NCBI GenBank assembly: GCA_026989655.1
Contig: JALSIX010000114.1
Span: 62,001 to 126,000 of the forward strand
Source of the DNA: Caldilineaceae bacterium
Lineage (GTDB): Bacteria; Chloroflexota; Anaerolineae; Caldilineales; Caldilineaceae
Length of the DNA: 64,000 nt
Direction: 5' to 3'
Position numbers and translations under genes: made by a program. The notes beneath the pieces were generated by a model. That model was given only the letters and a program-made list of their open reading frames with translations, was not told the DNA's origin and ran no database searches. Below are positions 4,801 through 22,130 of this stretch, piece after piece; position 1 is the stretch's first letter; each line of letters begins with the position of its first letter.

Positions 4801-5091
4801 TCAGCGCAGCTCCCCCAGGACCCGGAGGACACCGACGAAGTGGCCCTCCATGTCCAGGCTGTTGTGGGTCAGGAGCACCTGGGCCGTCCGACCGTCGTCC
4901 AGCCGCAGGGTCAGCTTCCGGTCCCGGTGGAGCTCGACAAAGGTCTTCCCCGCGTTCAGGTGACGGGTCCTGTAGTAGACCCGCAGGCGGCTGTGCTGGG
5001 GATGGTTCTCGGTGCCCATCTCCACGATCCGGACCTCGTCCAGGATCGACACGGGCTTGTCCACCCCGTCGAGATAGAGTTCGGCCTTCAT
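4801..5091 (-). CDS. Small hypothetical protein (96 aa)
   Basis: A 96-residue soluble, charged protein with alternating hydrophobic residues suggesting an all-beta fold; no signal peptide, membrane span or known motif is visible. It starts at the ATG at 5091 and stops 25 bp before the helicase start, in the same direction, so the two are probably co-transcribed. Codon use matches its neighbours. I do not recognise the family. A possible PilZ-like or sheet-rich binding domain was considered, but no RxxxR motif supports it. Confidence 0.65.
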   Translation of the reverse strand: MKAELYLDGVDKPVSILDEVRIVEMGTENHPQHSRLRVYYRTRHLNAGKTFVELHRDRKLTLRLDDGRTAQVLLTHNSLDMEGHFVGVLRVLGELR

Positions 5092-5505
5092 GGCGGTTCG
5101 GATCTCCTGGTGTCCGTGATGGCTGGGTGCTGTGATGGTTGCCTGTCCGTGACGGTCGCCGGGGAGCCCGGGAAACGGGGCAACAGCCCGGTCCCGCTCT
5201 CCAGCGTCAGCTCTTCCCGGCAAACTGAGACGAATATACGACTTTTGGAGTACGCGATCGGATCCGACAATAGAGACAGTCCCGAAGGGCTCCCAGGAAC
5301 CGGTGGCAACCTGGGAGCCGCCCGTGCCGCAATGGCCCGTTCGCCCCAGACCGGATGGACGACACTTCCCGGTATCCCCCCACGTTCCGACCGACCGTTC
5401 CCGATTGCACCATTGTAACAAAGGCGGGAAGTGCATGGCAAACAAGGGGCCCCATCTCTTCCCTGTCACCTGGGCTGTAATCTAGCCGAAGTATCCTGTC
5501 CTGTG
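5092..5505. other. Divergent intergenic region (414 bp)
   Basis: This region separates the minus-strand helicase operon from the plus-strand cyclase/AAA gene and must hold both promoters. A TATATT element on the minus strand (plus positions 5233-5238) and a TGTAAT element on the plus strand (5476-5481) are possible -10 boxes, but neither has a convincing -35 at the right distance. The centre is noticeably more AT-rich than the genes (about 5220-5280). A clear hairpin at 5288-5319 is listed separately. Confidence 0.5.
5288..5319. other. Perfect 10-bp inverted repeat in divergent promoter region
   Basis: GGCTCCCAGG at 5288-5297 pairs with CCTGGGAGCC at 5310-5319 around a 12-base loop. It lies between the two divergent transcription units, so it cannot be a terminator of either one. 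It could be an operator or a leader hairpin. Confidence 0.55.
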
Positions 5506-8500
5506 ATGACGTCGACCGGCATGCCCTGCCCCAGCTGCAACCACATCAACGCCCCGGAGATGCGCTTCTGTGTGGCCTGCGGCACAGCCCTTCCCCGGCT
5601 GTGCCCGAGCTGTGGCCACCCCGTGCCCGAGGCCCATCGCTTCTGCGGCCACTGTGGCGCCTCCCTGGAGCCCCCTCTCGCGTGCTCCCAGTGTGGGCAG
5701 CCGGTGCCCCTGGGCCACCGTTTCTGCGGCCATTGCGGCGCGCCGGTGGCCCCAGAGCCCCCGGCACCGAGCGGCACCTCCACCCCGGCTCCCTCCCCGC
5801 CCGAGGCGGTGGAGCCGGTCCCGGCCTCGGAGCTCCCAGCCTCCTCCCCGGGGAACGGCCATTTCCTGACCCTGTCCGAACGGCACGAGGAGATGCTGCG
5901 GGGGTTGCGAGGGCTCATGCCGCCCACCCTGGCGGAGAAGATCCGGGAGTCGGCCGGGGAGATCCGGGGACAACGCCGAGAGGTCACGGTGCTCTTCCTC
6001 CAGCTCAGCGAACATCCCGTGGAGGAGGCCACCTCCCTGGACCTGGACCAGGAGACCGTCTACTGGATCCTGGACCAGGCCATGCGGCGGCTGGTAGAGG
6101 TGATCTACAAATACGAGGGCACCGTGGACAAGTTCATGGGCAACGGCCTCATGGCCCTCTTCGGCGCGCCGGTCACCCACGAGGACGATCCCCAGCGGGC
6201 CGTGCGGACGGCCCAGGAGATCCACCAGACCCTGGAGCTCCTCTCGGACCAGTTGGCCCCGGAACACGGCCTGCGGCTGAAGGCCCGGATCGGCATCAAC
6301 ACCGGAGAGGTGGTGGCCGGCCGGGTGGGGAACTCCCTGCACATGGAGTACACGGTCATCGGGGACACGGTCAACCTGGCGGCCCGGCTCCAGGACGCGG
6401 CCCAGCCAGGCACCACCCTGGTGAGCCTGGTCACCTACCGCTACACCCGGCGCACCTTCCACTTCGCCGCGCTGGCCCCCATCCAGGTGAAAGGCAAGCC
6501 CGAGCCGGTCCGGACCTTCCGGGTGCTGGCCGTCCGGGAAGGCCCGGGGCAGGTCCGAGGCCTGCCCGGCCTGGAGATCCCCATGGTGGGGCGCCGGGAC
6601 AAGCTGGCCCTGCTGGAGGCCGCGCTGGAGAACACCCTCCGCACCGGCCGGAGCCACTACGCCCTGATCAGCGGCGAGGCCGGCCTGGGCAAGAGCCGCC
6701 TGGTCCAGGAGTTCCTGGCCCAGATCCAGGGCAGGCCGATCAACGTGCACGTGGCCGCCTGCCTGGCCTATGCCCGCTCCACCCCCTACTTCGTCCTGGG
6801 GGCCCTCATCCGCCAGCTGGCCCAGATCGCGGAGGGCGAGCCGGCCCACGTGCAGCAGCGCCAGGTGGAGAAGTACCTGGACGAGGTGGGCCTGCCCTCT
6901 GCGGAGCTCATGCCCTACCTGCTGGTGACCATGGGCCAGGAGGGGCCCCACGGCGACATCGCAGAGCGGATGGCCAACCTGACCGCGGAGGTGCTCCAGC
7001 GCCAGATCTTCCGCGCGGTGGCCCAGGTCCTGCGCGCGGAGGCCCAGGTGGCCCCCACCGTCCTGGTCCTGGAGGACATCCACTGGCTCGACCCGGCCTC
7101 CCGGGCCTTCTTCACCGAGTTCCTGGAGATCAGCTCGGATCTCCCCATGCTCACCATCCTGGTCTCCCGGGAGTACGAGCGCTCCACCGTGGCCCGGCCC
7201 CTGCTCGCGGTCCTGGTGGACCGGGACGAACGCTTCACCGACATCCGCCTGGACGCGCTGAGCGAGGAGGAGGCCCGCCAACTGGTCATCTGTCTGCTGG
7301 AACGGGCCGGTCTGGAACGGCCGGGACTGGCCGACCGGATCGTGCAGCGGGCCGAGGGCAACCCCTTCTACATCGAAGAGATCGTCCGCATGTTGCTGGA
7401 GAAGGCGGAATTCGGCCCCGCCGAGGAGCGGACGAACGGCCTCCAGGGGGCGGTCGTCGACCCGGGCACCCAGGTGGAGGAGACCCTGCGCGCGGTCCCG
7501 GGCAACCTCCGGGGGCTGATCCTGGCCCGCTTCGACGCCCTGCCCGAGGCCAGCAAGGCCATCGTCCAGCGGGCCGCGGTCCTGGGGCGCTCCTTCCCCG
7601 TGGAGCTCCTGCAGCGGCTGACGTCCCTGAGCCTGGAGGAGCTGACCCAACACCTGGACGAGCTGGTCCAGCGCCAGTTCCTGGTCCGAGAGCCCTTCAG
7701 CAATGGCCTGGGCTACGCGTTCCGCCATATCCTGATCCTGGAGGCCATCTACGGCACCCTGCTGAAACGGGACCGCCGGGAGCTCCACTACCAGGTGGCC
7801 CTGGTGCTGGAGCACGAGCCGTTCCTGCCCAAGGACAACCAGATCGAGGCCCTGGCCTACCACTACCTCCAGAGCCACCACCCAGAGCGGGCCCGCCCCT
7901 ACCTGCTCCAGGCCGCCCAGCGCTCCATGCAGCGGAGCGCCTACGAGAGCGCGGTCCAGCTCTTCGAGCAGCTCTTCATGTTCTACGAGCAGGAACCGGA
8001 GGACTTCGACCCGGTCTACGTGCAGACCCTGGTGGGCATGGGGCAGGCCCTGAAGCTCTCGGGCAGCTACGAGGAGGCCCTGGTCCATCTGTCCACGGTC
8101 TCCGCGTACCTGGACCGCTACCCCATCGGGCCCGAGACCGCATCGGAACAGGTGGACCTCTACCTGGAAGCCCGCTGCGAGCTCGGCGACGTCCTCCAGC
8201 GGCGGGGGGACTTCCTCACGGCCACCGAACACCTGGACGAGGCCCTGGCCGTGGCCCAGAAGCACCGGCGCACCGGCTCCCCCATCTGGTTCACCCTGGT
8301 GGAGCGGAAGGCCTGGGTGGATTTCCGACGGGGCAACCTGGACAGCGCCACCCGCCTGGCCCGGGAGGCCATCCAGGCCCTGGAGGCCATGGAGAGGCCC
8401 GGGCTGCCCCCCATCGTCCTGGCCAACCTCTACAACACCCTGGGCGGCGCGGCCTGGCAACAGGGCAACCTCCACGAGGCCATCTCCTACGTCCGGGGCA

Positions 8501-11500
8501 GCCTCCACATCCACGAACAGGCAGGCTACGCCTGGGGAATGAGCGTCGCCTACACGAACCTGGGCAACCTCTACTGGAGCATGGGCCAGTGGACCGCAGC
8601 CACCGAGGCCTACGCCCGGGCCGCCCAGATCCAGGCGGACAACGGCTTCATGGCCGAACAGACCATCAGCCTGCGCAACCTGGGCCACATCCTGATCTTC
8701 CAGGGCAAGTACGACGAGGCCCGCCAGGCCCTCCTGCAGACCCTGACCCTGTGCGAGGCCCAGGACAACCGCTACGGCCTGCTGTTGAGCCACCTGGCCC
8801 TGGCCGCCCTGGCCGCGGAGCAGGACGACCGGGAGGAACTGGCCTACCAGTTGGAGCAGGCCCGGAAGTACGCGGACCTGGCCGACCTCCAGCACCAGGT
8901 GGAGATGACCATGTACACCGGCCGCCTCTGCCAGCTGGACGGCCGCTACGCCGAGGCAGAGCCCCTGCTGCTGGAGGCCCGCCAGAAGGCCGAGGAGGCC
9001 AACCTCCAGGAGGTCCTCATCGAGGGCGAGTACGCCCTGGGCCTCCTCTATGGGGCCCAAGGTCGCCTGGCCACCGCGGAGTACTGCCTCCAGCGGAGCG
9101 CGGAGCTGGCCGGAGAACGGGGCAACACCGAACGGCAGGCCAAGGCCCTGATGGAGCTGGCCCACCTCCTCTTCCGCCACAGCCGCTCCGGAGACCAGGA
9201 TCCCCAGATCCTGTTGGAGAAGGCCACCGTGCTGCTGGACAAGGCCACCCACCTCTTCCAGGAGGCCCGCATCGAACACCGGCTGGCCCAGTGTCAGGAG
9301 CTCCGAGGGGCCATCCAGCGGGCCTCCCAACGCCTGGCCCAGCTCTCCGAAGGAGGGCCGACCTACCCCCTGGACCTGATGGACGGCCACGGGCTGGCCG
9401 AGAGCCGACGGGTGCCGGTCACCGTGGCCTGGCTGGACCTGCGGGTGGCCGCGGAGGAGCCCGACGAGGAGTGGGCCTTCGAGGAGCTCACCACCCTCCT
9501 CTCCCTGGCCCACACCGTCATCCAGGAGCTGGGCGGGCACCTGGTCCGCCAGACCCAGGGGGTGCTGCTGGTCTTCGGCGTCCCCGCGGTCCGGGAGGAC
9601 GACGTGCCCCAGGCCGCAGAGGCCGCGCTCCGGATCCTGGAGGAGCTGGCCCAGCCGGAACGGTTCCGGGTCTACCAGGTGGCGGCCGGGCTCAGCAGCG
9701 GCCCGGCCATCTGTACCACCTGGGAACCGGACCACCACGAACGGCTGGTGGTCAGCGGCCCCTCGGTGGACCAGGCCCGGGAGCTGGCCCAACAGGCCCC
9801 GGCAGGCCAGCTCTGGGTCACCCAGGCCGCGGCAGACCGCATGCGCCATGCCTTTGTCCTGGCGCCCATCGCGGCGAAGGCAGAGGACCGGGACACCCGG
9901 ATCTACCGGGTGAGCGCCCGACAGGCCCGGCCCGGAAGCCCCCGAGGGCTGGAACGGGGCGTGCGCATGGTGGGCCGGGAGGAACTCCTGGAGGCCATGC
10001 TGGAGTTCACCCGGACCGTCCGCCAGGGCCGAGGCGGTGTCCTCTGGGTGGAAGGGGACGCGGGCATCGGCAAGAGCCGCCTGCTCCGGGAGTACGCAGC
10101 CCGACTGGCCCAGGAGGGCACCGTCTTCTGGACCGGCGCGTGCAGCGCGCGCAGCCGTTCCCAGGCCTTCTTCCTCTTCACCCAGATCTTCGCCTCCGCC
10201 TTCGACTTCACCCCGGGAGACAGCCTGGAGACCCGACGGGCCAAGCTCCACAGCCGAGTGGAGGCCCTGGGGCTGGACGTGGGCTCCATGCGCCCCTACC
10301 TGGACCTGCTGTGTGGGCTCCCCCTGGGGATGGAGGAGATCCGGCGGCTGGAACGGTTGGCACCGGAGCAGCTCCGCCAGCAGATCTTCACCGCGGCCCG
10401 GGCCGCCCTGGGCGGCCAGGTGGCCCAGGGGCCCCTGGTCCTCCTCATCGACGACCTCCACTGGGTGGACCCGGTGTCCGCCAACCTCCTCCTCTCCCTG
10501 GCCTCCCTGATCCTCTCGGCCCCGGTCCTGTTCGTCCTGGCGACCCGGCCGGGCATCGACGAGGACGGCCCGGAGGAGGTCCAACTCCTGCGCCAGCGTT
10601 TTGCGGACTTCAGCCTCTTCCTGGACGTGACCCAGCTCTCCCCCGAGGAGTCCCTGGATCTCCTGCAGGCCCTGCTGGGGGAGGAGCCTGTGGACACCGA
10701 GCTGGCCCAGTTCGTGCTGGCCCGCAGCCAGGGCAACCCCTACTTCGTGGAGGAGTTCGTCCGCTTCCTCATGGAACGGGATCTCCTCCACCGCACCGAG
10801 CAGGGCTGGGCCCTGGCCACCCCGCCCGAGCAGGTGATGGACACCTGGCCCACCAGCCTGGAGGCCCTCATCCGCTCCCGGCTGGACGTCCTGCCCGCGG
10901 TCCAGCGCCAGCTCGTCCAATACGCCGCGGTCCTGGCCCGCCCCTTCAAGGCCACCCTGATGACCCGGCTGCTCCAACGCCCCCAGATCGAGGAGGTCCT
11001 GGCCAGCCTGGTCCGGCGCAAGGTGCTGCGCTACCAGGTGGAGGGCCGACACTGGTACTTCGGCCACCACCTGACCCAGATGGTCGTCTACAGTGGGCTG
11101 CTGCGGGTCCACCGCCAGGCCCTCCACCTGGACATCGCCCAGACCCTGGAGGAGATGGCCCAGGAGGGGAACACGCCCCCTGTGCTGGAGGAACTGGCCC
11201 ACCACTTCCAGGAGGCCGGCTACATGGCCAAGGCCCTGGACTACTGGGTCCAGGCCGGGGAAGAGGCCATGGGCCAGTACGCGGTGGAGGCCGCCCTGGA
11301 CCACTTCGAACGGGCCTACGCCATCATCCAGCAGGAGATCCTCCAGGTCTCCACCGATCTCCGGCGGCGGGTGGCCATGGGCCTGGCCGAGGCCTATCGC
11401 TACCGGGGCAAGCTGGAGAAAGCGGCCCAGATCCTCCAACAGGCCCTGGAGGTCCTGCCCGCCGCAGAGCTCAGCCCGGCCCAGCGGGCCGGGCTCTACC

Positions 11501-12609
11501 GGCTGCTGGGCGACATCGTGCGCCGCCAGGGGCAGCCCGAGAAGGCCTACGACGCCTTTCGCCAGGCCCTGGTGCTCCTGGAGGAGCCCGAGACCCAGGA
11601 AGGCCAGGCCGAGGCGGCCCGGGCCCTCCAGGGTTTGGCCTTCACCCACTTCCAGCGGGGCCAGTTGGACAAGGCCTTCCAGGTGGCACAGCTGGGGCTG
11701 GAATATGCCCGTCGGGCCCAGGAACCCATCATCGAGGCCGGGAGCGAGAACCTGTTGGGCGGCATCGCCTACGCGCAGGGGAACTGGCAGGAGACCATTG
11801 CCCACGTGGACCGGGCCTACCAGCTCTACGAGGCCGAGAACGACCTCAACGGCATGGCCGCGGCCCTCAGCAACCTGGCCATCCTGATGGCCGAACAGGG
11901 CGACCGGGACCGGGCTCGGCTCTACTTCCGCCACAGCCTGGAGCTGCGGGAGAAGATCGGCGACCTGGAGGGGGTGGCCCTCACCCACAACAACCTGGGC
12001 TGGCTGGAGCGGCTCAGCGGCCACTTCGAGCGGGCCCGCTTCCACTTCGAACGGGGGCGCAGCCTCAGCGAGTCCCTGCGCTTTCCCTTCCACCTGGCCA
12101 CCGCCCTGCTGGCCCTGGGCGAGCTCCACCTGGCCCAGGGCCAGCAGGCCGAGGCCCAGGCCTTCCTGGACCAGGCCACCCGGTGGGCCCAGGAGGCGGA
12201 TGCCCAGGCCCTGTTGGCGGAGATCCACCAGATCCAGGCCCAGGCCGCCCTGGCCCTGGACGACCCGTCCCAGGCCGAACAGTCGGCCCGCTGGGCCATC
12301 CTGCTGGCCGCGGAGACGGGGAACTCCAACCTGGAGGCCGGCGCCTGGCGGATCCTCAGCCAGATCCAGCTCCACCAGGGGAAGCTGGAGGCCGCGGAGC
12401 GCTCCCTGAACATGGCCCAGCAACGGCTGACCGAGCCCCGAGGCCTGGAGGCCGGCCGTATCCTGGTCCAGTCGGCCCGCCTGCACATGGCCCGTCAGGA
12501 GGCAGCCGAGGCTCGCCAGATGCTGGAACGGGCCCGAGAGCTGTTCCAACACCTGGGCACCCGGCCCGACCTGGAGGATGTGGAGGCACTGCTTGTCCAA
12601 CTGGCCTAG
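5506..12609 (+). CDS. Giant zinc-ribbon / cyclase homology / AAA ATPase / TPR protein with duplicated architecture
   Basis: A 2367-residue cytoplasmic signalling protein. Domains in order: three zinc ribbons in the first 85 residues (repeated CxxC pairs, the later two followed by CGHCGA); class III cyclase homology domain 1 (about 155-330); an AAA/STAND ATPase with Walker A GEAGLGKS near 389 and Walker B LVLEDIHW near 521; TPR repeats to about 1280; a second, eroded cyclase-like domain (about 1305-1455); a second ATPase with Walker A GDAGIGKS (about 1517-1524) and Walker B LLIDDLHW (about 1646); and a second TPR array to the end. Cyclase domain 1 has Gln166 and Asn213 where the two metal-binding Asp belong, but keeps Lys209, Asn290 and Arg294 (Thr283 suggests subclass IIIb). 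Domain 2 keeps one Asp (1311) but has Gln1351, Asp1422 and Glu1426 elsewhere. Alone, neither should be a normal cyclase. The start is ATG 5506; ATG 5521 is an alternative. The next gene, 40 bp downstream, encodes a close relative. Confidence 0.9.
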   Translation: MTSTGMPCPSCNHINAPEMRFCVACGTALPRLCPSCGHPVPEAHRFCGHCGASLEPPLACSQCGQPVPLGHRFCGHCGAPVAPEPPAPSGTSTPAPSPPEAVEPVPASELPASSPGNGHFLTLSERHEEMLRGLRGLMPPTLAEKIRESAGEIRGQRREVTVLFLQLSEHPVEEATSLDLDQETVYWILDQAMRRLVEVIYKYEGTVDKFMGNGLMALFGAPVTHEDDPQRAVRTAQEIHQTLELLSDQLAPEHGLRLKARIGINTGEVVAGRVGNSLHMEYTVIGDTVNLAARLQDAAQPGTTLVSLVTYRYTRRTFHFAALAPIQVKGKPEPVRTFRVLAVREGPGQVRGLPGLEIPMVGRRDKLALLEAALENTLRTGRSHYALISGEAGLGKSRLVQEFLAQIQGRPINVHVAACLAYARSTPYFVLGALIRQLAQIAEGEPAHVQQRQVEKYLDEVGLPSAELMPYLLVTMGQEGPHGDIAERMANLTAEVLQRQIFRAVAQVLRAEAQVAPTVLVLEDIHWLDPASRAFFTEFLEISSDLPMLTILVSREYERSTVARPLLAVLVDRDERFTDIRLDALSEEEARQLVICLLERAGLERPGLADRIVQRAEGNPFYIEEIVRMLLEKAEFGPAEERTNGLQGAVVDPGTQVEETLRAVPGNLRGLILARFDALPEASKAIVQRAAVLGRSFPVELLQRLTSLSLEELTQHLDELVQRQFLVREPFSNGLGYAFRHILILEAIYGTLLKRDRRELHYQVALVLEHEPFLPKDNQIEALAYHYLQSHHPERARPYLLQAAQRSMQRSAYESAVQLFEQLFMFYEQEPEDFDPVYVQTLVGMGQALKLSGSYEEALVHLSTVSAYLDRYPIGPETASEQVDLYLEARCELGDVLQRRGDFLTATEHLDEALAVAQKHRRTGSPIWFTLVERKAWVDFRRGNLDSATRLAREAIQALEAMERPGLPPIVLANLYNTLGGAAWQQGNLHEAISYVRGSLHIHEQAGYAWGMSVAYTNLGNLYWSMGQWTAATEAYARAAQIQADNGFMAEQTISLRNLGHILIFQGKYDEARQALLQTLTLCEAQDNRYGLLLSHLALAALAAEQDDREELAYQLEQARKYADLADLQHQVEMTMYTGRLCQLDGRYAEAEPLLLEARQKAEEANLQEVLIEGEYALGLLYGAQGRLATAEYCLQRSAELAGERGNTERQAKALMELAHLLFRHSRSGDQDPQILLEKATVLLDKATHLFQEARIEHRLAQCQELRGAIQRASQRLAQLSEGGPTYPLDLMDGHGLAESRRVPVTVAWLDLRVAAEEPDEEWAFEELTTLLSLAHTVIQELGGHLVRQTQGVLLVFGVPAVREDDVPQAAEAALRILEELAQPERFRVYQVAAGLSSGPAICTTWEPDHHERLVVSGPSVDQARELAQQAPAGQLWVTQAAADRMRHAFVLAPIAAKAEDRDTRIYRVSARQARPGSPRGLERGVRMVGREELLEAMLEFTRTVRQGRGGVLWVEGDAGIGKSRLLREYAARLAQEGTVFWTGACSARSRSQAFFLFTQIFASAFDFTPGDSLETRRAKLHSRVEALGLDVGSMRPYLDLLCGLPLGMEEIRRLERLAPEQLRQQIFTAARAALGGQVAQGPLVLLIDDLHWVDPVSANLLLSLASLILSAPVLFVLATRPGIDEDGPEEVQLLRQRFADFSLFLDVTQLSPEESLDLLQALLGEEPVDTELAQFVLARSQGNPYFVEEFVRFLMERDLLHRTEQGWALATPPEQVMDTWPTSLEALIRSRLDVLPAVQRQLVQYAAVLARPFKATLMTRLLQRPQIEEVLASLVRRKVLRYQVEGRHWYFGHHLTQMVVYSGLLRVHRQALHLDIAQTLEEMAQEGNTPPVLEELAHHFQEAGYMAKALDYWVQAGEEAMGQYAVEAALDHFERAYAIIQQEILQVSTDLRRRVAMGLAEAYRYRGKLEKAAQILQQALEVLPAAELSPAQRAGLYRLLGDIVRRQGQPEKAYDAFRQALVLLEEPETQEGQAEAARALQGLAFTHFQRGQLDKAFQVAQLGLEYARRAQEPIIEAGSENLLGGIAYAQGNWQETIAHVDRAYQLYEAENDLNGMAAALSNLAILMAEQGDRDRARLYFRHSLELREKIGDLEGVALTHNNLGWLERLSGHFERARFHFERGRSLSESLRFPFHLATALLALGELHLAQGQQAEAQAFLDQATRWAQEADAQALLAEIHQIQAQAALALDDPSQAEQSARWAILLAAETGNSNLEAGAWRILSQIQLHQGKLEAAERSLNMAQQRLTEPRGLEAGRILVQSARLHMARQEAAEARQMLERARELFQHLGTRPDLEDVEALLVQLA

Positions 12610-12649
12610 ATGTGATATCTTCTGCCCACCGAGGTGACGAGGCCTGCCC

Positions 12650-14773
12650 ATGTCGAACCCTGGCCCGCAGAGCCCGAACGGAAGCCCCATGCCCCAGAAC
12701 GCCACCACCTGCCCCCAATGCGGCACCGTGGCCCCGCCCGGCGCCCGTTTCTGCGGCCACTGTGGCACCCGCCTGCCCACCCGGGCCCTCCTCCCCTCCG
12801 GCCCCCGCCCGGGCCCCACCGGCCTGGAGGAGCTCTCCCCTCCGGGCCCCATCCCCCCGACCTCGGACGGATCCCTGGCCATCCAGGGCGAACGCCGGGA
12901 GATCACGGTGCTGGTGGCCGACGTCTCCAACTTCACCGCGGCCAGCCACCGGATGGACCACGAGGACATCTACATCCTGATCAACGAGGCCATCCGCACC
13001 ATGGTGGACATCGTGTTCCGCTACGAGGGGAGCGTGGAACACTTCACCGGGGACGGGCTCATCGCCCTCTTCGGCGCGCCGGTGGGCCACGAGAACGATC
13101 CGGAGCGGGCAGTCCGGGCTGCGCTGGAGATCCAACAGGCCCTGGAGCTGCTGCGGCTGCGGGCCCTGCAGCGGTACAACTTCGACCTGCGGGTGCGCAT
13201 CGGGATCCACACGGGCTGGGCCATCGTGGGCAAGGTGGGCAACGAGCTCCACACAGAGTACACCGTGGTGGGCGAGAGCATCCAACTGGCCTCCTATCTG
13301 GAGAGCCAGACCGACCCTGGGACGGTGCTGGCCAGCTTCACCACCTATCAGCGCACCCGGCCCATCTTCCACTACCAGCGAGTTCGGCTCTTCGGCCCAC
13401 CGAATGGGCTCCAGGAGCTGGAGACGGCCTTCCGCCCCCTGCGGGTCCGGGAGAAGCCCAGCAACATCCGCGGCCTGCCCGGCATGCAGGTGCCCCTGAT
13501 CGGGCGCGAGGAGGAGCTGGACGAGCTCCGGGCCGGGCTGCAGGAGGTGCTGCGCCACCCCCGACGTACCCGGCTCCTCGCGGTGATCGGCGAGGCAGGC
13601 CTGGGCAAGAGCCGCCTGGTCAACGAGTTCGGCCGATGGGCCGAGCAGCGAGGCGTGCCGGTCTTCGAGGGCGCGTGTCTGGCCTACGGCCGCTCCAGCC
13701 CCTACTGGATGGTCCGAGACCTGGTCCGCCGGCTGGCCGGCCTCGACGAGGGCCTGACCGGCGATGCCCAGGTGCGGGAGCTGGGGGACTGGCTCCACAG
13801 CCTGCCCATCGACCACGACGCGGACGTGGTGCTGCCCTACCTGTTGATGGCCATGGGGCTGGAGGCCTACGCCCCCCAGCTCTGCCGGCCCCTGAACCTG
13901 CTGGAGAGGGGGATGCTCCAGCAACGGATCCACGTGATGCTGCGCCACGTGCTCTGGGCCATCCTGCGAGAGCCCGCGGTCCTGGTGTTGGAGGACCTCC
14001 ACTGGATCGACGCGCCCTCCCTCCGCTTCCTGGAGTACTTCCTGCGCACCACCCAGAACCTGCCCCTCCTGATCATCCTGGTCACCCGGGACTACGAACC
14101 CCACACCCAGGTAGGGCAGCTCCTGACCGTGGCCGAGACCCTGCCCGGCTGGCTGCCCCCCATCCACCTCCAGGCCCTCTCCGAGGAACAGAGCCACCAC
14201 TTCCTCCAGCAGCTCGTCCCCGGCCAGAGCCCCCTGCTCCAGAAGGTGCGGGAGGAGATCGCGGCCCAGGCCGAGGGGAACCCCTTCTACATCGAGGAGA
14301 TCGTGCGCATGCTGCTCGACCAGGAAGGCCTGGTCTTCCGGGAAGAGGGGCTGGACGCGGTGGAACAGGCCCTCACCCTGATCCACGAGGTCCCCGGCAC
14401 CCTGGCCGGGCTGATCCTGGCCCGCTTCGACCGGCTGCCCCCGGCCCTGCGGCGCACCCTCCAGCAGGCGGCCGTGCTGGGCCGCTCCTTCCCCCTGCGG
14501 CTGTTCCAAGCCCTGCGCCCCGGCGAGGCCGAGAAGGTGCGCCAGGAGCTGGACGCCCTGGTGGAACGCCACTTCCTGCAGCAGGAGTCCTTCGGCCCCG
14601 AGCCCGGCTACGCGTTCCGCCACACCCTGATCCAGAGCGCCATCTACCACACGCTCCTCCGCCGAGATCAACAGCGCCTGCACCAGATGGTGGCCCAGGC
14701 CATCGAGACCATCGCGCCCGAGGAACGACAGAGCTGGCAGGCCCTCCTGGCCCACCACCGTCAGAAGCTCTGA
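12650..14773 (+). CDS. Zinc-ribbon / cyclase homology / AAA ATPase protein (no TPR), paralog of the upstream gene
   Basis: A 707-residue protein that repeats the first half of its upstream neighbour: one zinc ribbon (CPQCG...CGHCG, residues 21-44), a class III cyclase domain (about 80-255) and an AAA/STAND ATPase with Walker A GEAGLGKS near 313-320 and Walker B LVLEDLHW near 445. It ends just where the TPR array begins in the neighbour. The cyclase domain retains both metal-binding Asp (Asp91 in VLVADVSNF, Asp135 in FTGDGL) but has His131 for the substrate Lys, Gln212 for the catalytic Asn and Tyr216 for the transition-state Arg. This is the reverse of the losses in domain 1 of the upstream protein. 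The sequence after the TGA is AT-rich non-coding DNA with no TPR remnant, so the short C terminus looks like a stable form and not a recent nonsense mutation. The start ATG 12650 lies 40 bp after the upstream stop; ATG 12689 is an alternative. Confidence 0.88.
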   Translation: MSNPGPQSPNGSPMPQNATTCPQCGTVAPPGARFCGHCGTRLPTRALLPSGPRPGPTGLEELSPPGPIPPTSDGSLAIQGERREITVLVADVSNFTAASHRMDHEDIYILINEAIRTMVDIVFRYEGSVEHFTGDGLIALFGAPVGHENDPERAVRAALEIQQALELLRLRALQRYNFDLRVRIGIHTGWAIVGKVGNELHTEYTVVGESIQLASYLESQTDPGTVLASFTTYQRTRPIFHYQRVRLFGPPNGLQELETAFRPLRVREKPSNIRGLPGMQVPLIGREEELDELRAGLQEVLRHPRRTRLLAVIGEAGLGKSRLVNEFGRWAEQRGVPVFEGACLAYGRSSPYWMVRDLVRRLAGLDEGLTGDAQVRELGDWLHSLPIDHDADVVLPYLLMAMGLEAYAPQLCRPLNLLERGMLQQRIHVMLRHVLWAILREPAVLVLEDLHWIDAPSLRFLEYFLRTTQNLPLLIILVTRDYEPHTQVGQLLTVAETLPGWLPPIHLQALSEEQSHHFLQQLVPGQSPLLQKVREEIAAQAEGNPFYIEEIVRMLLDQEGLVFREEGLDAVEQALTLIHEVPGTLAGLILARFDRLPPALRRTLQQAAVLGRSFPLRLFQALRPGEAEKVRQELDALVERHFLQQESFGPEPGYAFRHTLIQSAIYHTLLRRDQQRLHQMVAQAIETIAPEERQSWQALLAHHRQKL

Positions 14774-15380: not shown

Positions 15381-16922
15381 TCACCCGGGTCCCCCAGCCG
15401 GAGCCCCTGCCCACCCCCGCAGAGGGTGCCGCTGCATGGCCACCAGCTCCCGCAGGACACCCACCGTGAGCTCGGGCTCGTCCTGGGGCGCAACCACCTG
15501 GTGAAGGGGCCGCCCCCGCAGCAGACGCTCCACGTTGTCCAACGAACGAGCGGCCTGGATCGGATCGCCCAATCCATGCCACACCGTGGCCAGGGCCATG
15601 TGGACCAGGGGAGCCTCGGGATCCAGGTACCGGGCCCGGCGCAGAGCCGCCAGCGCTCCCGGCAGATCGTCCATCCCCTGGGCCACCATCCCCCGCCAGT
15701 AGTGGACCCGGGCCAGGTCCGGGGCCAGGGCCTCGGCCCGGTCCAGCCAATGGCTGGCCTCCTGCCATCGGCACTGGGATGCCAGGTCTCGGGCCCTGTC
15801 ACAGGCCCGGTGGGGGTCGTCCACCGGCTCGGGGCATCCCGCCGCCTCCAGCCGGCCGGGCCCCGGCTCCGACCGAGGGACCTCCGCCGGAGGGGATCCT
15901 CCCCGGGGCAGGACCTTTCCGAGGCCCGTCTGCCCCCACGACCGCCCAGGCGGGGCATGGCCGAACGCCCCCACGCCCGGCCACCCCCCTGGAGAGGTCG
16001 GCTGTTCCCCGGTCCAGGGTGCCCTGCCCCCTGTCGAACGTTCCCAGGGGGTGGCGATCCCCGCCGGGGGCGACGGCCCTTCCCCCGGCCCGGGCCGCCG
16101 GTAGACCGTGGCCCCTCCCAGGCGGATCCGCTGGAAACGGTGGTAGTATCCGGGCATGGCCTCCACCGCGCTCACCAGGAGCCACCCGCCCTCGGCCAGA
16201 CAGTCGTAGAGCCGTTGGACCACCCGGTGGGCCGTCTCCGGGTCGAAGTAGATCAGGACGTTGCGACAGAGGATCAGGTCGAAATCGGCCAGGCCGCGCC
16301 CGGGATCCGGATATCGATCGGCAGCCAGGTTCAGGTGTTGGAACGTCACCCAGCCGCGCACCGGTTCCCGCAGCCGGTAGATGTTCTCCTGGACATCGAA
16401 GTAGGCCCGCACCACCTCCGGGGGCGTCTGCCGCAGGGACCAGGGCCGATATCGGCCCTCCCGGGCCTGGGCCAGGGCCTGTCGGTCCACATCGGTTCCC
16501 AACAGCCGCCACGTCCACCGGTCGGCCTCGGGCAGGAGCTGGTGGAGGAGAATGGCCAGGGAGTAGGGTTCCTCGCCGGTGGCGCAGGCCGCGCTCCACA
16601 TCCGCAAGGTCCGCTGTTCCCGACGGCGCCACAGGATCTCCGGCAACAGCTCGTGGCGGAGGAGGTCGAAATGGACGGGATCCCGGAAGAAGTAGGACTC
16701 CCCCACGGTCATGGCCTCGGCCAGCCGTTGGAGCAGGGCGTGGCTGCCCGGGCCATCGAGCCGCTCCAGCAGGGCATCCACGTCCCCACCGGTGTGCTCC
16801 CGGGCCAGGAGAGAGGCCGCCCGCAGCAGCTCCGGGTGTCGGTAGGCGGGAAGACGCAGACCGCTGAACCGCTGGAGCCGCTCGGCCAGGGCGACCACCT
16901 GTGGTGCTGGAACCCCGTCCAT
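15381..16922 (-). CDS. cheR: CheR-type chemoreceptor methyltransferase with C-terminal TPR
   Basis: A 513-residue protein. The first about 280 residues are CheR: an N-terminal helical domain, MTVGESYFFRDP near 70-80, the SAM-binding WSAACATGEEPYS stretch near 108-120, and LILCRNVLIYF near 218-228. CheR transfers methyl groups from S-adenosylmethionine to glutamates of chemoreceptors. A Pro/Gly-rich linker of about 90 residues follows, then a TPR-like region (about 375-460), as in FrzF-like or CheR-TPR fusions where the repeats recruit a receptor or partner. It is the last gene of the chemosensory operon, starting 5 bp after the cheW stop. ATG 16922 was chosen because upstream in-frame codons lie inside cheW. 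Confidence 0.92.
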   Translation of the reverse strand: MDGVPAPQVVALAERLQRFSGLRLPAYRHPELLRAASLLAREHTGGDVDALLERLDGPGSHALLQRLAEAMTVGESYFFRDPVHFDLLRHELLPEILWRRREQRTLRMWSAACATGEEPYSLAILLHQLLPEADRWTWRLLGTDVDRQALAQAREGRYRPWSLRQTPPEVVRAYFDVQENIYRLREPVRGWVTFQHLNLAADRYPDPGRGLADFDLILCRNVLIYFDPETAHRVVQRLYDCLAEGGWLLVSAVEAMPGYYHRFQRIRLGGATVYRRPGPGEGPSPPAGIATPWERSTGGRAPWTGEQPTSPGGWPGVGAFGHAPPGRSWGQTGLGKVLPRGGSPPAEVPRSEPGPGRLEAAGCPEPVDDPHRACDRARDLASQCRWQEASHWLDRAEALAPDLARVHYWRGMVAQGMDDLPGALAALRRARYLDPEAPLVHMALATVWHGLGDPIQAARSLDNVERLLRGRPLHQVVAPQDEPELTVGVLRELVAMQRHPLRGWAGAPAGGPG

Positions 16923-16927
16923 GTGGC

Positions 16928-17389
16928 TCACGGGAACGCAGCCCGGGAATGGGGATCGGCCCAGGAGGCCGCACCAGCTCGGGGGCGCTCGAGCCAGGCG
17001 TAGCTCTCGGCCACCAGGGGCGCAGGATCCAGGAGAAGCACCAGTTGCTCGTCCTGGTGGGTCACCCAACGGCCCTCCTCGGGTTCCGGCAGGGCCGCCA
17101 CGTCGCACACCGAGGTCACCACCAGGCCCACGGAACGCCCCTCCACACCCACCACGATCACCGGGGTGTCCAGGTGGATGGGCACCCCGGGCAGGCCCAG
17201 CCGGCGGGCCAGGTCCAGGACCGGCAGCACCTGGCCCCGGAGGTTGAGACAGCCCAGGAGCCAGGCCGGTGCGTGGGGCAGGGAGAGCAGAGCGGCCATG
17301 CGCAGGACCTCCACCACATGTTCGATGGCCAGGCCGTAGAGCGGCTCCCCCAGCCGGAAGAGCAGGTACAGGGAGCGTCCTTCCCTCAT
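16928..17389 (-). CDS. cheW: CheW-like coupling protein
   Basis: A 153-residue protein made of a single CheW domain that links chemoreceptors to the CheA kinase. Typical features are LYLLFRLGEPLYGLAI near residues 7-22, the LGCLNLRGQVLPVLDLA stretch near 48-64 and IVVGVEGRSVGLVV near 80-93. Its ATG overlaps the stop of the preceding REC-histidine kinase gene by 4 bp (ATGA), so translation is probably coupled. It is the second CheW in the operon and lacks the long N-terminal extension of the first. Confidence 0.92.
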   Translation of the reverse strand: MREGRSLYLLFRLGEPLYGLAIEHVVEVLRMAALLSLPHAPAWLLGCLNLRGQVLPVLDLARRLGLPGVPIHLDTPVIVVGVEGRSVGLVVTSVCDVAALPEPEEGRWVTHQDEQLVLLLDPAPLVAESYAWLERPRAGAASWADPHSRAAFP

Positions 17390-18558
17390 GGGGACACCTC
17401 CAGGGTCGCGGGAGAGGAGAGGGTGCCCTCGGAGTGGATGGGCACCGCGACGGTGAAGGTGCTGCCCTGCCCCGGCCCCGGAGATTCCGCCCACACCGTG
17501 CCCCCATGGGCCTCCACGATCTCCCGCACGATGAACAGGCCCAGGCCCGTTCCCTGGATCTCCCGGACCGCGGGGTTGTCGGCCCGGCGGAACTTGTCGA
17601 AAAGGTGGGGGAGGAGATCGGGATCCAGCCCAATGCCCGTGTCCTGAACCTGGAAGAACATCCGGCCCCCCTCCTGCCAGAGGCGGATCCAGATGCTCCC
17701 CTCCCGAGGCGTGTACTTCAACGCGTTCACGATCAGGTTGTCGAACACCTGCTTCAGACGACGGCCATCGGCCCAGATCTGGGCCGGCGCCCGGTCGGTC
17801 TCCACCCGAACCTGCTGGCCGTTCAGCCGGGCCCGGATCTGGGCCATGCGAACGCTCTCCTCCAACAGGGCCCGGGGATCCACCCAGGCGAACTCCAACT
17901 GCAGTTTCCCCGACTCCAGGCCGATGAAGTCCAGGTAGTCGTTGATCAGCTCGTGGAGCCGGTGGCTGGCCTGGAGCAAGGTATGGACCAGCTCCCGCTG
18001 GGTCTCGTTGAGGGGCCCGGTGGCCGGGTCGGACAGGAGATCCAGGGCCAGTTGGATGGTGTTGGTCGGGCTGCGCAGGTCGTGGGCCACGATGGCGAAC
18101 AGCTCGGCCTTCACCGCCTCCAACTGGCGGGCTGCCAGGATGCCGGCCCGCCGCTCCATGGCCTGCTCCAGCCAGTAGAGGAAGGCCTCGTGATCCCCGC
18201 CCACGGACACATCCTCCTTCTGGATGTAGCCGTCGGCTCCCTCCCGGACCGAGGCGATGGCCGAGCGGACACCGCCCATCCCGGTGATCACCACCACGGT
18301 GGGTTCCTCGGTCTGGCTGCGGATCGCCCGCAACACCTGGATCCCATCGGTGTCGGGCAGGAGAAGGTCCAGGAGGATCAGGTCATAGCAGGTCGGGTCC
18401 ATCCCCAGCCGGTCCAGACACTCCCGGCCCGTGGCCACCCCCTCCACCTGGATCCGGTGCTCCCGCAGGAGGGCGGCGATGAAGGTGCGGACCGTGGCCG
18501 AATCGTCCACGATCAGCACGCGCTTCCCAGCAAGCGATTCAGCGGCCATGTGGCTCAT
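17386..18558 (-). CDS. Response-regulator receiver / histidine kinase hybrid
   Basis: A 390-residue cytoplasmic protein with a receiver domain first (VLIVDDS at 14-20, phospho-acceptor Asp64 in LLDLLLPDTDG), then a HisKA dimerisation domain with His159 in IVAHDLRSPTN, and a HATPase_c domain with the N box FDNLIVNALKY and G boxes DTGIGLD and GTGLGLF. Receiver-first kinases of this kind take a phosphoryl signal (here presumably from CheA) and pass it on, so this may be the operon's output in place of a separate CheY. There are no membrane spans. ATG 18558 overlaps the cheB stop by 4 bp; ATG 18549 is an alternative. Confidence 0.9.
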   Translation of the reverse strand: MSHMAAESLAGKRVLIVDDSATVRTFIAALLREHRIQVEGVATGRECLDRLGMDPTCYDLILLDLLLPDTDGIQVLRAIRSQTEEPTVVVITGMGGVRSAIASVREGADGYIQKEDVSVGGDHEAFLYWLEQAMERRAGILAARQLEAVKAELFAIVAHDLRSPTNTIQLALDLLSDPATGPLNETQRELVHTLLQASHRLHELINDYLDFIGLESGKLQLEFAWVDPRALLEESVRMAQIRARLNGQQVRVETDRAPAQIWADGRRLKQVFDNLIVNALKYTPREGSIWIRLWQEGGRMFFQVQDTGIGLDPDLLPHLFDKFRRADNPAVREIQGTGLGLFIVREIVEAHGGTVWAESPGPGQGSTFTVAVPIHSEGTLSSPATLEVSP

Positions 18559-19616
18559 CTCCTGTCTGGCACTTCCGCGACCCGGCCCACCAGCTCCAAC
18601 AGCTTGGGGCCGATCGCCTCCAGGGGAAGCACGTAGTCCGCCGCCCCCATCTCCACCGCGGCCCGGGGCATCCCCCACACGGCCGCGGTGGCCTCGTCCT
18701 GGACAATGCCGATGCCCCCATGGTGGTGCACGGCCCGGAGCCCCTCCGCGCCGTCGGATCCCATGCCCGTCAGCACCACGCCCAGACTCTGCTTCCCCCA
18801 CAGACGGGCCATGGACTCCAGCAGGACCGTGCCCGAGGGGCGGACGTAGTGGACCGGTGGCCCCTCCTCCAGGCGAAATCGCCCCGGCCGGACGAGGACC
18901 AGGTGGCGGTCGTCCGGGGCGAAGTAGACGGTCCCGGCCTGGGGCCACTCCCCGTCCTGGGCCACCCGGCACCGCAGGGCAGTGTGGCCCTGGAGCCAAT
19001 CCACCAGCCCCTTCAGAAACCCAGGCGCCATGTGTTGGACCACCACGATGGGCACCGGGAAATGGGCCGGCAGGCCCCTCAACAGGGTGTTCAGGGCCAT
19101 GGGCCCACCCGTGGAGGCCACCACACCGATGCATCGAGGCCGGGAGCCAGGCGTGGCCCCATGGGCCCGGAGGCCTGGGGACCCCGCGGCGCGGGCGGGG
19201 TCGGGCTGGCGCAGCACCCGGACCGAGGCCATCAGCTTCACCGTGGCCACCAGGCGCCGCCGCGCGTACTCCGAAGCCCGCCCTGGGTCCACGCCGGGCT
19301 TCTGGAGCACGTCCAGGGCACCGGCCTGGATGGCCCGAAAGGCCACCCGCAGCTCGGGCTTGTCCACCCCGCCGCTGACCACCACGATGGGGACCGGATG
19401 CTCCTGCATGATCCGCCGGGTGGCCTCGTAGCCGTCCATCCCCGGCATGAACACATCCATGGTGACCACGTCCGGGTTCCGTTGTCTCACCTGCTCCAGA
19501 GCCTCCTGGCCGGTGGCGGCTGTCCCAACCACCTGGATCTCCGGATCGGCCCCCAGGATCTGGCGCAACACCAGCCTGGCGGTGGGGGAATCGTCCACGA
19601 TCAGAACCCGTACCAT
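18555..19616 (-). CDS. cheB: Chemotaxis protein-glutamate methylesterase CheB
   Basis: A 353-residue protein with an N-terminal receiver domain (VLIVDDS at 4-10, Asp54 in TMDVFMPGMDG) and a C-terminal methylesterase domain with the catalytic triad visible: Ser168 in VASTGGP, His195 in VVQHM and Asp288 in TGMGSDGA. When phosphorylated by CheA it removes receptor methyl groups and resets adaptation against CheR. The ATG at 19616 is preceded by AGGAG; a more distal ATG at 19652 lacks such a site. It overlaps the downstream REC-kinase gene by 4 bp and follows cheA after 129 bp. Confidence 0.95.
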   Translation of the reverse strand: MVRVLIVDDSPTARLVLRQILGADPEIQVVGTAATGQEALEQVRQRNPDVVTMDVFMPGMDGYEATRRIMQEHPVPIVVVSGGVDKPELRVAFRAIQAGALDVLQKPGVDPGRASEYARRRLVATVKLMASVRVLRQPDPARAAGSPGLRAHGATPGSRPRCIGVVASTGGPMALNTLLRGLPAHFPVPIVVVQHMAPGFLKGLVDWLQGHTALRCRVAQDGEWPQAGTVYFAPDDRHLVLVRPGRFRLEEGPPVHYVRPSGTVLLESMARLWGKQSLGVVLTGMGSDGAEGLRAVHHHGGIGIVQDEATAAVWGMPRAAVEMGAADYVLPLEAIGPKLLELVGRVAEVPDRR

Positions 19617-19745
19617 AGATGGCTCTCCTGAAGGGTGGTGCCCCTGGGGCACGTCGACAAGGCTGGCTCCACTATACGGGGCCCCGGGGGCCCGGCCAAT
19701 GGGACCAACCGCCCGGCCTCGGATCTCGGCCCCGGGGACGGAGCC

Positions 19746-22130
19746 TCACACGAACCGTCGGATGGTGTCCAGAAGATGTTGCTGATCGAAGGCCCCCTTC
19801 ACGATGTAGGCGTCCGCGCCGGCCTCGATCCCCCGCCGCCGATCCTGTTCCGAGCCCAAAGAGGTGACCAGGACGACCGGCAGACGTTCCAGGCGGGGGT
19901 CCTGGCGGATCCGGGCGGTCAACTCCAGGCCGTCCATCCGGGGCATGTCCACATCCGAGACCACCAGGTCCACCTGGAGTTCGGCCAGCCGTGCCCAGGC
20001 ATCGTGCCCATCCGTCGCCACCTCCACCGCATATCCCGCGCTCCGCAGGATGCTGCGCAACAGGGTACGGGTGGTGGTGGAGTCGTCCACCACCAGGATG
20101 CGGGGCGCGCCGGGCCGGGCTGCCGGCCTTGCCGGCCCGTCCGCCGCGGCCAAGGCCACCGGCGCGGTGGACCCCACGGCCCGCAGCAGGTCGCCCACGT
20201 GGAGCACCAGGATGGGCTCCCCGGAACCCCGGAGCGCGACCCCGGCCACATGGACCACCGAGTACAGGGGATCGGGCAGGGGCTTCACCACCAGCTCCTC
20301 CATCCCCTCCAACCCATCCACCCAGCAGGCCGCCATCCGAGGACCGCATTCCAGGGCCACCAGGATGGGCTCCGGCCCTGAAGCCCCGGGCCCCAGACCC
20401 AAGAGCCCGGCCAGATGGGCCACCGGGATCGCGCGGCCGCCCACCTGGACGGCCGGCCCCCCCTCCACCGAGACCACTCCAGAGCCCTCCACCGGCAGGA
20501 GACGATGGACGTGGTGGACCGGCAGGGCAAAACGCTGCCCTCCGGCCCGGACCACCAAGCAGAGGGTGGCCGCCACCGTGAGGGGCATGGTCAGGGTGAA
20601 GGTGGTGCCCTGCCCCACCCGGCTCTCCACATCCACAGTGCCCTGCAGCCGCTCCACCTGGTCCCGGACCACATCCAGGCCCACGCCCCGGCCCGAGATG
20701 GTGGAGACCGCGGACCGGGTGGAGAAGCCCGGCCGGAAGATCAGCCACAGGGCCTGGCCCGCATCGTACTTCTGCCGCTCCTCCGGCCCGATGATCCCCC
20801 GCTCCACCGCCCGACGGAGCACCATGGCCGGATCGATGCCCCGACCATCGTCCTGCACCCGGATGCGGAGGCCGTCCCCCTGCTGGGTGGCCTCCAGGAC
20901 CAGGGACGCCTGCCTGGGCTTGCCCGCGGCCACCCGTTCCTCCGGCCCCTCGATGCCGTGGTCCACCGCGTTGCGGAGCAGGTGGATCAGAGGCGCCTTG
21001 AGCTGCTCCACGATGGCCCGATCTACCTCCACCTCGTCGCCCAGGATCTGGAACCGGATCTCCTTGCCCTGTTCGCGGGCCAGATCCCGCACCATCCGGG
21101 GAAAGGTCTCCAGGAGCCCCGACAGCGGAACCAGCCGGGTCTGTTGGACGTCGTCCTGGACCCCGGCAATGGCCTGGCCCATCCGATGGTTCAACCGATG
21201 GACGAACTGGACCAGGCGGCCCATCTCCCGGCGCATGTGGGCCAGATGCGCCTCCTGCTCCTCCAGGTGTTCCTGCCACAGGCGGACCCCGTGCCAGGCC
21301 TCCAGGGCCCCCGGGGCCCGGTGGGCTCCCTCCATCCACCCCCGGCTCTGGGCCCGAAGCCGCTGCCAACGCCGCTCCCAGGTCCCCAACCGACGATGGA
21401 GCTCCTGGATCTGGTCCACCAGCCGGTGGAACCCGTTCCGCAACACCTGGAGCTCCCCCACCTGGCCCATCAACGCGTCCAGCTTGGCCGTGGAGAGCCG
21501 GACGGTCTCCTCGGCCCGGGCCCTGTCCTCGGACCCGAGGGAGCGGCCCCTGTGGCCGACGGTTTCCGGCCCCGAAGAGGCCGGGGACTCCCATGGCGAG
21601 GGGGAAACGGGCGCGGCCTTCTCCGGGCCCGACACCGCCGACGGCCCGGGTGGCTCGCCCCGGGGGGGTGTCGCCGGCCTGGGGGACGGGGCGGGCGGCT
21701 CGATGCCCGGGGCCGAGGGCGCGGGCTCCCCAGGCCCCTCCTGGGCAGCTCGCTCCAGCTCCTGGCAGAGGGCATCCACCGAGACGGACTCCGGGTCGGG
21801 GGCCTCCGCCGCCTCCTGGATCGCGTCCAGGGTGCGGTAGAGCAGGTCGAACAGACCGGGCCGGAGGGGCTGCACCCCCTCCTGGACCTGGTCCAAGAGG
21901 GTCTCCATCCGGTGGGCCAGGTCGCCCACCGGGCTCAGGCCGATGGCCCGGGCCGATCCCTTCAGGCTGTGGGCCAGGCGGAAGAGCTCCTGGAGGAGGG
22001 GGGCCTGGTCCTGGGGGTCCACGCCCTCCTCCAGGCGCAGCAGACACCGGTTGGCCTGTTGCACGTACTCCCCGGCCTCGGCCCGAAAGGCCCGGCGCAG
22101 CTCCTGCAGCAGTTCCTCGTCCAGGTTCAT
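19746..22130 (-). CDS. cheA: Hybrid chemotaxis histidine kinase CheA with C-terminal receiver
   Basis: A 794-residue CheA. An HPt domain with His54 in [11 protein letters not shown] is followed by a Pro/Gly-rich linker of about 80 residues, the dimerisation helices, the HATPase_c domain with [19 protein letters not shown] (N box) and later G boxes, a CheW-like regulatory domain, and a C-terminal receiver (ILVVDDS, Asp726 in [11 protein letters not shown]). There is no clear P2 CheY/CheB-docking domain. The fused receiver is typical of non-flagellar or gliding chemosensory systems, where it acts as phosphate sink or output. Its ATG overlaps the MCP stop by 4 bp. The 129-bp gap to cheB holds only GC-rich palindromic sequence and a TATAGT box on the minus strand. 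Confidence 0.95.

Follow-up and report, generated by a model that had tools for sequence, protein, structure and literature searches.

Two adjacent genes in the window (the whole analyzed stretch of 64,000 nucleotides, whose positions are used throughout; residue numbers are those of the respective protein) code for proteins, here called P1 and P2, whose class III cyclase domains (CHDs) hold reciprocal and jointly complete residue sets at 8 of 8 active-site columns. We consider it probable that the two form an obligate heterodimer in trans, with one ATP site, that makes cAMP, a reading in which the pairing, the activity, the product and the gating by the ATPase domains are all predicted.

Domain architecture and active-site residues of P1 and P2

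Both genes lie on the forward strand, separated by 40 bp. P1 (5506..12609, 2367 aa) begins with zinc ribbons (DZR, residues ~8-77, 5527..5736), which are followed by a first CHD (CHD1, residues 152-345, 5959..6540), an AAA/STAND ATPase core of approximate borders (6601..7185) with the Walker A motif GEAGLGKS and the Walker B motif LVLEDIHWLD, and a TPR region. The C-terminal half repeats this arrangement with a degenerate second CHD (CHD2, residues ~1302-1461, 9409..9888), which was delineated with a profile built here and whose catalytic positions read D/q and r/d/e, a second ATPase core (AAA_16, residues 1488-1677, 9967..10536) and further TPRs. P2 (12650..14773, 707 aa) is composed of a zinc ribbon, a CHD (residues 78-268, 12881..13453) and an AAA_16 ATPase core (residues 282-476, 13493..14077), without TPRs. 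As read from the sequence, each of the three ATPase cores has intact Walker A and B motifs. The Guanylate_cyc family (PF00211) is matched by residues 158-338 of P1 and 83-237 of P2 with 69.5 and 53.2 bits, above the curated cut-off of 21.9. The GC content by codon position (0.75/0.43/0.93 and 0.74/0.43/0.93) indicates a strong coding bias in the two ORFs, and the long antisense ORFs at this locus are a by-product of the high G+C. With 44% identity between P2 and the N-terminal half of P1, the two are paralogues. Convergent to them, on the reverse strand (15381-23842), lies a chemotaxis-like cluster coding for a CheR with TPRs, CheW, a receiver-histidine kinase, CheB, a CheA with a receiver and an MCP.

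In CHD1 of P1, both metal-binding Asp are replaced, the first by Gln166 (codon CAG, 6001..6003), after which the P-loop has decayed too, and the second by Asn213 (AAC, 6142..6144). The same domain keeps the base-recognizing Lys209 (AAG, 6130..6132), the transition-state residues Asn290 (AAC) and Arg294 (CGG; 6373..6387 for both) and the triphosphate Lys, Lys329 of a VKGK motif (6490..6492). The CHD of P2 presents the converse: Asp91 (GAC, 12920..12922) with an intact DVSNFT P-loop, Asp135 (GAC, 13052..13054) and the GDG are kept, His131 (CAC, 13040..13042) replaces the Lys, Gln212 (CAA) and Tyr216 (TAT; 13283..13297 for both) replace the Asn and Arg, and the triphosphate Lys is absent. In a D1-D2/Lys-Asn-Arg notation, the two domains read q-n/K-N-R and D-D/h-q-y. 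Thus, neither chain by itself contains the two Asp together with Lys, Asn and Arg that mark an active homodimer; further, the P-loop for metal binding is intact in P2 only and the triphosphate Lys (K329) is found in P1 only. Alignment and codons bear out both ORFs and all ten residues named in the initial annotation, to which we add the second, degenerate cyclase domain of P1 and the reciprocity of the P-loop and triphosphate Lys. Sequencing error as the source of the substitutions was rejected on the codons: four of the five substitutions lie at least two bases from any codon for the canonical residue, or are otherwise beyond one error in the family's usual codons, and N213 is the only one that is a single base from an Asp codon.

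The bias of these losses can be gauged against 64 complete relatives, in which 43 columns are conserved at 80% or above. Among these, we define four metal-face columns (both Asp and the P-loop Phe and Thr) and four nucleotide-face columns (Lys, Asn, Arg and the triphosphate Lys), whose roles we take to follow those in animal adenylyl cyclase. Six of the 43 columns are broken in the P1 of the window, including all four of the metal face and none of the nucleotide face; in P2, 12 of the 43 are broken, including all four of the nucleotide face and none of the metal face. Under random placement of the breaks, the odds of these patterns are ~1e-4 and 1.5e-3, figures in which the P-loop and triphosphate-Lys roles were assigned after the alignment had been seen.

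Unsupervised searches against all PDB sequences separate the two domains along the same line. For the P2 CHD, the best alignments are to human sAC (its C1 half), AC5/AC8 (C1) and sGC alpha, and for the P1 CHD1 to sAC (its C2 half), AC2/AC5/AC8/AC9 (C2) and sGC beta. As controls, two complete relatives (the P1 of the family genome G369 and the P2 of another, G374) match both C1 and C2 kinds, and the P1 of G374, which lacks both metal Asp, leans toward C2/beta. The split therefore reaches beyond the residues picked in the initial annotation, though those residues contribute to it. A class III CHD fold is predicted for both domains (AF2 pLDDT 89.3 each, pTM 0.87), with best VIA Z values of 26.9 and 28.4 for the two CHDs, to CyaB (3r5g) over 189 residues; the models are weakest at P2 171-180 and P1 21-30 (model numbering), which correspond to the decayed faces. 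Comparison of the predicted folds did not tell the C1-like and C2-like types apart.

The genome, which is 99% complete, codes for three Guanylate_cyc proteins: P1, P2 and a protein on contig C9 (G000:C9:9129-14426; L062:4130-9427). In the latter, an sAC-like tandem cyclase-AAA-TPR protein that matches human ADCY10 best among PDB sequences (E 6e-23), C1 has the Asp pair and C2 has Asn/Arg and an sAC-type Lys; tandems of this type are present in several family genomes (L114-L122). The C9 protein has both of its halves in one chain, which leaves P1 and P2 as the genome's only unpaired halves. Contig C9 additionally codes for a CRP-like protein bearing the canonical cAMP-binding motif FGELAALDGQPRSA (G000:C9:18586-18840; L176), ~4 kb from the gene for the tandem; cAMP signaling is hence plausible.

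Relatives and the probable order of the losses

The family of the window was sampled with 46 genomes and is the only family of its order in our sample. In two of the other genomes, G374 and G336, the P1-P2 pair recurs in the same order and on the same strand, and in these, as in the window, P2 follows a P1 lacking both metal Asp. A fourth such P1 occurs in G347, where no P2 was detected behind it in a MAG that is 86% complete, is spread over 970 contigs and has P1 cut at a contig end. The residues at the two metal positions are different in each of the four (QN in the window, HH in G374, SR in G336 and NS in G347), and the P-loop Thr has been lost in four different ways. Summed over the four proteins, the metal-face columns carry at least 14 changes, and the four nucleotide-face columns carry none. 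Lys, Asn and Arg are retained to no greater degree than other conserved structural columns; because those columns are also kept and the four P1s are phylogenetically non-independent, we treat this retention as support and not as proof. P1 occurs without P2 in two further relatives and is complete in both: in G369, a subtilase gene is next to it and no P2 was found, and in G329 (C409; L052:3297-10298), the orthologue has a complete CHD1 and is interrupted, between the ATPase and TPR regions, by a single in-frame stop.

The initial annotation had predicted that both residue patterns would co-occur in relatives. This was not found: the half seen in P1 recurs alone, and the P2 proteins of G374 and G336 have the complete residue set. 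Hence, the strictly reciprocal pair is present in one genome only (one assembly, 150 contigs). As for relatives in which one gene stands alone with the same losses, G347 has an Asp-less P1 with no P2 detected, but in a fragmented MAG, and the solitary P1 proteins of G369 and G329 are complete.

Elsewhere in the class, the dead CHD1s of P1-type proteins have lost both faces (as/Kdq, gD/Kak, gD/qda and tq/haa). Likewise, two separate gene pairs of G325 (L049, L050) each combine a complete cyclase with a paralogue decayed on both faces (rD/KNa and tn/Kqe). One-sided loss is therefore an exception and not the usual course of decay. The relatives of G166 and G325 yielded no second reciprocal pair, and a scan of genome contigs recovered distant cyclases only, almost all of which have the full set of five residues.

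Several further CHDs in these genomes merit description. On contig C90 of G347 (L111:2484-7952), a complete cyclase gene is followed by a gene for a 590-aa paralogue with the pattern Dn/KNR and a lost P-loop, another case of one-sided loss. G166, with 48 Guanylate_cyc matches, codes on contig C23 (L054:1-3342) for a P2-like CHD with the pattern DD/rrt, in a gene cut at the contig end; this domain leans toward C1 halves in the PDB search and is an independent C1-like half. CHD2 is degenerate in every P1-type protein seen, with both Asp still kept in some (DD/rqy in G302 and DD/rdR in G166:C234).

The P1 clade is supported at 99/93 and includes the complete P1 of G369. An origin of P2 as a recent duplicate of the window's own P1 is disfavored (p-AU 0.027); a grouping of the window's P2 with those of G374 and G336 is not rejected (p-AU 0.229), though the tree does not single it out. 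Upstream of P1, two genes are shared by the window and G336, which is from another genus: one for a UvrD helicase (65% identity) and a small one without a Pfam family (54% identity; 4801-5469 of the window, reverse strand). Hence, the two loci are the same.

These relatives suggest a stepwise history of loss. The likely order would begin with an ancestral P1 whose CHD1 was complete and which was active as a homodimer, followed by duplication of the N-terminal half of P1 to give rise to P2 alongside it. Thereafter, P1 would have lost its metal face. In a P1:P2 dimer, this loss would make the nucleotide face of P2 redundant, so that it could in turn be lost, as probably happened in the lineage of the window only.

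Alternative explanations and known two-part cyclases

One alternative, which we regard as unlikely though deserving of attention, is that both CHDs are pseudo-cyclases which dimerize, mutually or with themselves, as scaffolds or ligand switches for the STAND ATPases, the reciprocity being a coincidence of relaxed decay. Degenerate CHDs are indeed common in the STAND/TPR proteins of the class (beside complete genes in G325, and in G302, G312, G343 and G368), the CHD2 of P1 itself is always of this kind, and the retention of Lys, Asn and Arg that equals the other structural columns would also fit such a role. However, the decayed domains elsewhere lose both faces, whereas P1 and P2 have lost exactly one each; the Asp were replaced in four different ways, yet Lys, Asn, Arg and the triphosphate Lys are all intact; and P2 has kept its Asp, P-loop and GDG. 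Unusual residues are known among class III homodimers, including some bacterial ones, and P2 (or P1) could be an active homodimer with non-canonical residues and a regulatory partner. Related CHDs often have Arg or Gln for the Lys while keeping the Asn and Arg (DD/rNR and DD/qNR), indicating that the Lys is replaceable. Against this, all four nucleotide-face residues are missing from P2 at once, and P1 is without both the metal Asp and the P-loop, which leaves such a homodimer very improbable.

The unpaired faces might also be completed by other partners, with CHD1 pairing with CHD2 inside P1, or P1 or P2 with the sAC-like C9 protein. The P1 chain does carry two CHDs, and in G302 a CHD2 of the pattern DD/rqy accompanies a CHD1 of the pattern as/Kdq. 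Yet the CHD2 of the window has one Asp only and none of the Lys, Asn and Arg, and the C9 protein is diverged and has both halves in cis; we hold either arrangement improbable. The obligate P1:P2 heterodimer, as the initial annotation had proposed, is the best-supported explanation, by virtue of the one-sided losses in P1, the C1/C2 split in the PDB searches, the lack of other unpaired halves in the genome and the synteny. Its weaker side is that the two patterns were not found together in relatives and that G347 has no detected P2; full reciprocity is known from one genome, and the complete P2 of G374 and G336 could be a homodimer.

Division of one cyclase site between two gene products is known from eukaryotes. 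In the animal sGC alpha/beta, each product holds half of the residues, alpha being akin to C1 and beta to C2, and homodimers cannot rebuild the site (PMC3591389). In the NeoR/RGC enzymes of chytrid fungi, again two genes for one site, the metal Asp come from one partner and the base residues from the other, and the RGC2 and NeoR domains are inactive alone and active together (PMC12264004). P2 and P1 resemble sGC in the two-gene split and in their respective PDB matches to alpha and beta. However, sGC combines H-NOX, PAS and coiled-coil regions and is an animal enzyme making cGMP, whereas P1 and P2 are bacterial, with an ATP-type Lys/Thr pair and zinc ribbon, STAND ATPase and TPR regions; in the Pfam matches (for P1, in 25 of 46 families listed), no H-NOX or PAS precedes the CHD, and zinc ribbon, AAA_16 and TPR are found instead. 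NeoR/RGC differs in being rhodopsin-gated, GTP-specific and eukaryotic, and its RGC1 partner retains a metal Asp, D379 (PMC12264004). Hence, while P1 and P2 would work like both of these systems, they belong to neither by domain make-up. The transmembrane adenylyl cyclases of animals show the same reciprocity as P1 and P2, P-loop and triphosphate Lys included, but have C1 and C2 fused in one membrane protein (PMC9552081), whereas P1 and P2 are separate proteins.

In ADCY10 and the bacterial sAC-like tandems, a C1 with the Asp pair and a C2 with Lys/Asn/Arg precede the ATPase and TPR regions. In these, however, the halves are in one chain, whereas those of P1 and P2 are in trans and derive from another duplication; the tandem C1-C2 arrangement is present in the C9 protein and absent from P2, which has a single CHD, and from P1, whose CHDs are ~1000 residues apart with CHD2 degenerate. 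The CHD and AAA/TPR regions align with the TOMM_kin_cyc model (TIGR03903; E 1e-134 and 1e-70). Membership in that family was rejected: the scores of 450.9 and 238.6 fall below the curated cut-off of 705.75, and the match starts after ~263 of the 1267 model positions, the N-terminal part being absent. PycC models are also matched by the CHDs (E 1e-19 and 3e-17), a similarity that might be shared by any CHD; in a PADLOC scan of neighbors, the helicase alone matched, and the matches listed (the best 25 of 44) are mainly to GajB-type models, with no Pycsar effector among them.

Predicted mechanism and its implications

We predict that P1 is the C2-like and P2 the C1-like subunit of a heterodimeric class III adenylyl cyclase. 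P2 would supply the P-loop and the metal-binding D91 and D135, and CHD1 of P1 the base-recognizing K209, the Thr of the substrate-selecting site (T283), N290/R294 and the triphosphate Lys K329, so that a single ATP site would lie between the two domains. The Lys/Thr pair K209/T283 points to ATP and to a class IIIb type. The pseudo-symmetric second site would lack both sets and be at most regulatory, as second pseudo-sites are in tmAC and fungal NeoR/RGC (PMC12264004). Neither P1 nor P2 would be active as a homodimer. In P1, the STAND ATPase and TPR regions would detect a ligand and thereby control when the CHDs meet.

Bacterial class III cyclases have been described as homodimers (PMC9552081), and in the open-access literature we found no bacterial heterodimeric class III cyclase encoded by two genes, the two-gene cases being from animals and fungi. 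If P1 and P2 are active only together, they would exemplify trans complementation in a bacterium. The broader proposition, that this is a STAND-gated, obligate heterodimeric cyclase of two bacterial genes whose relatives record the passage from homodimer through one-sided to reciprocal forms, and hence an unfused parallel to the origin of the animal C1/C2 halves, is in our estimation evenly poised. Were it true, the complete homodimer, one-sided and reciprocal types among the relatives would make the evolution of C1/C2 asymmetry testable with a few purified domains, and P1 and P2 would offer a two-input (AND-type) cAMP switch based on STAND ATPases.
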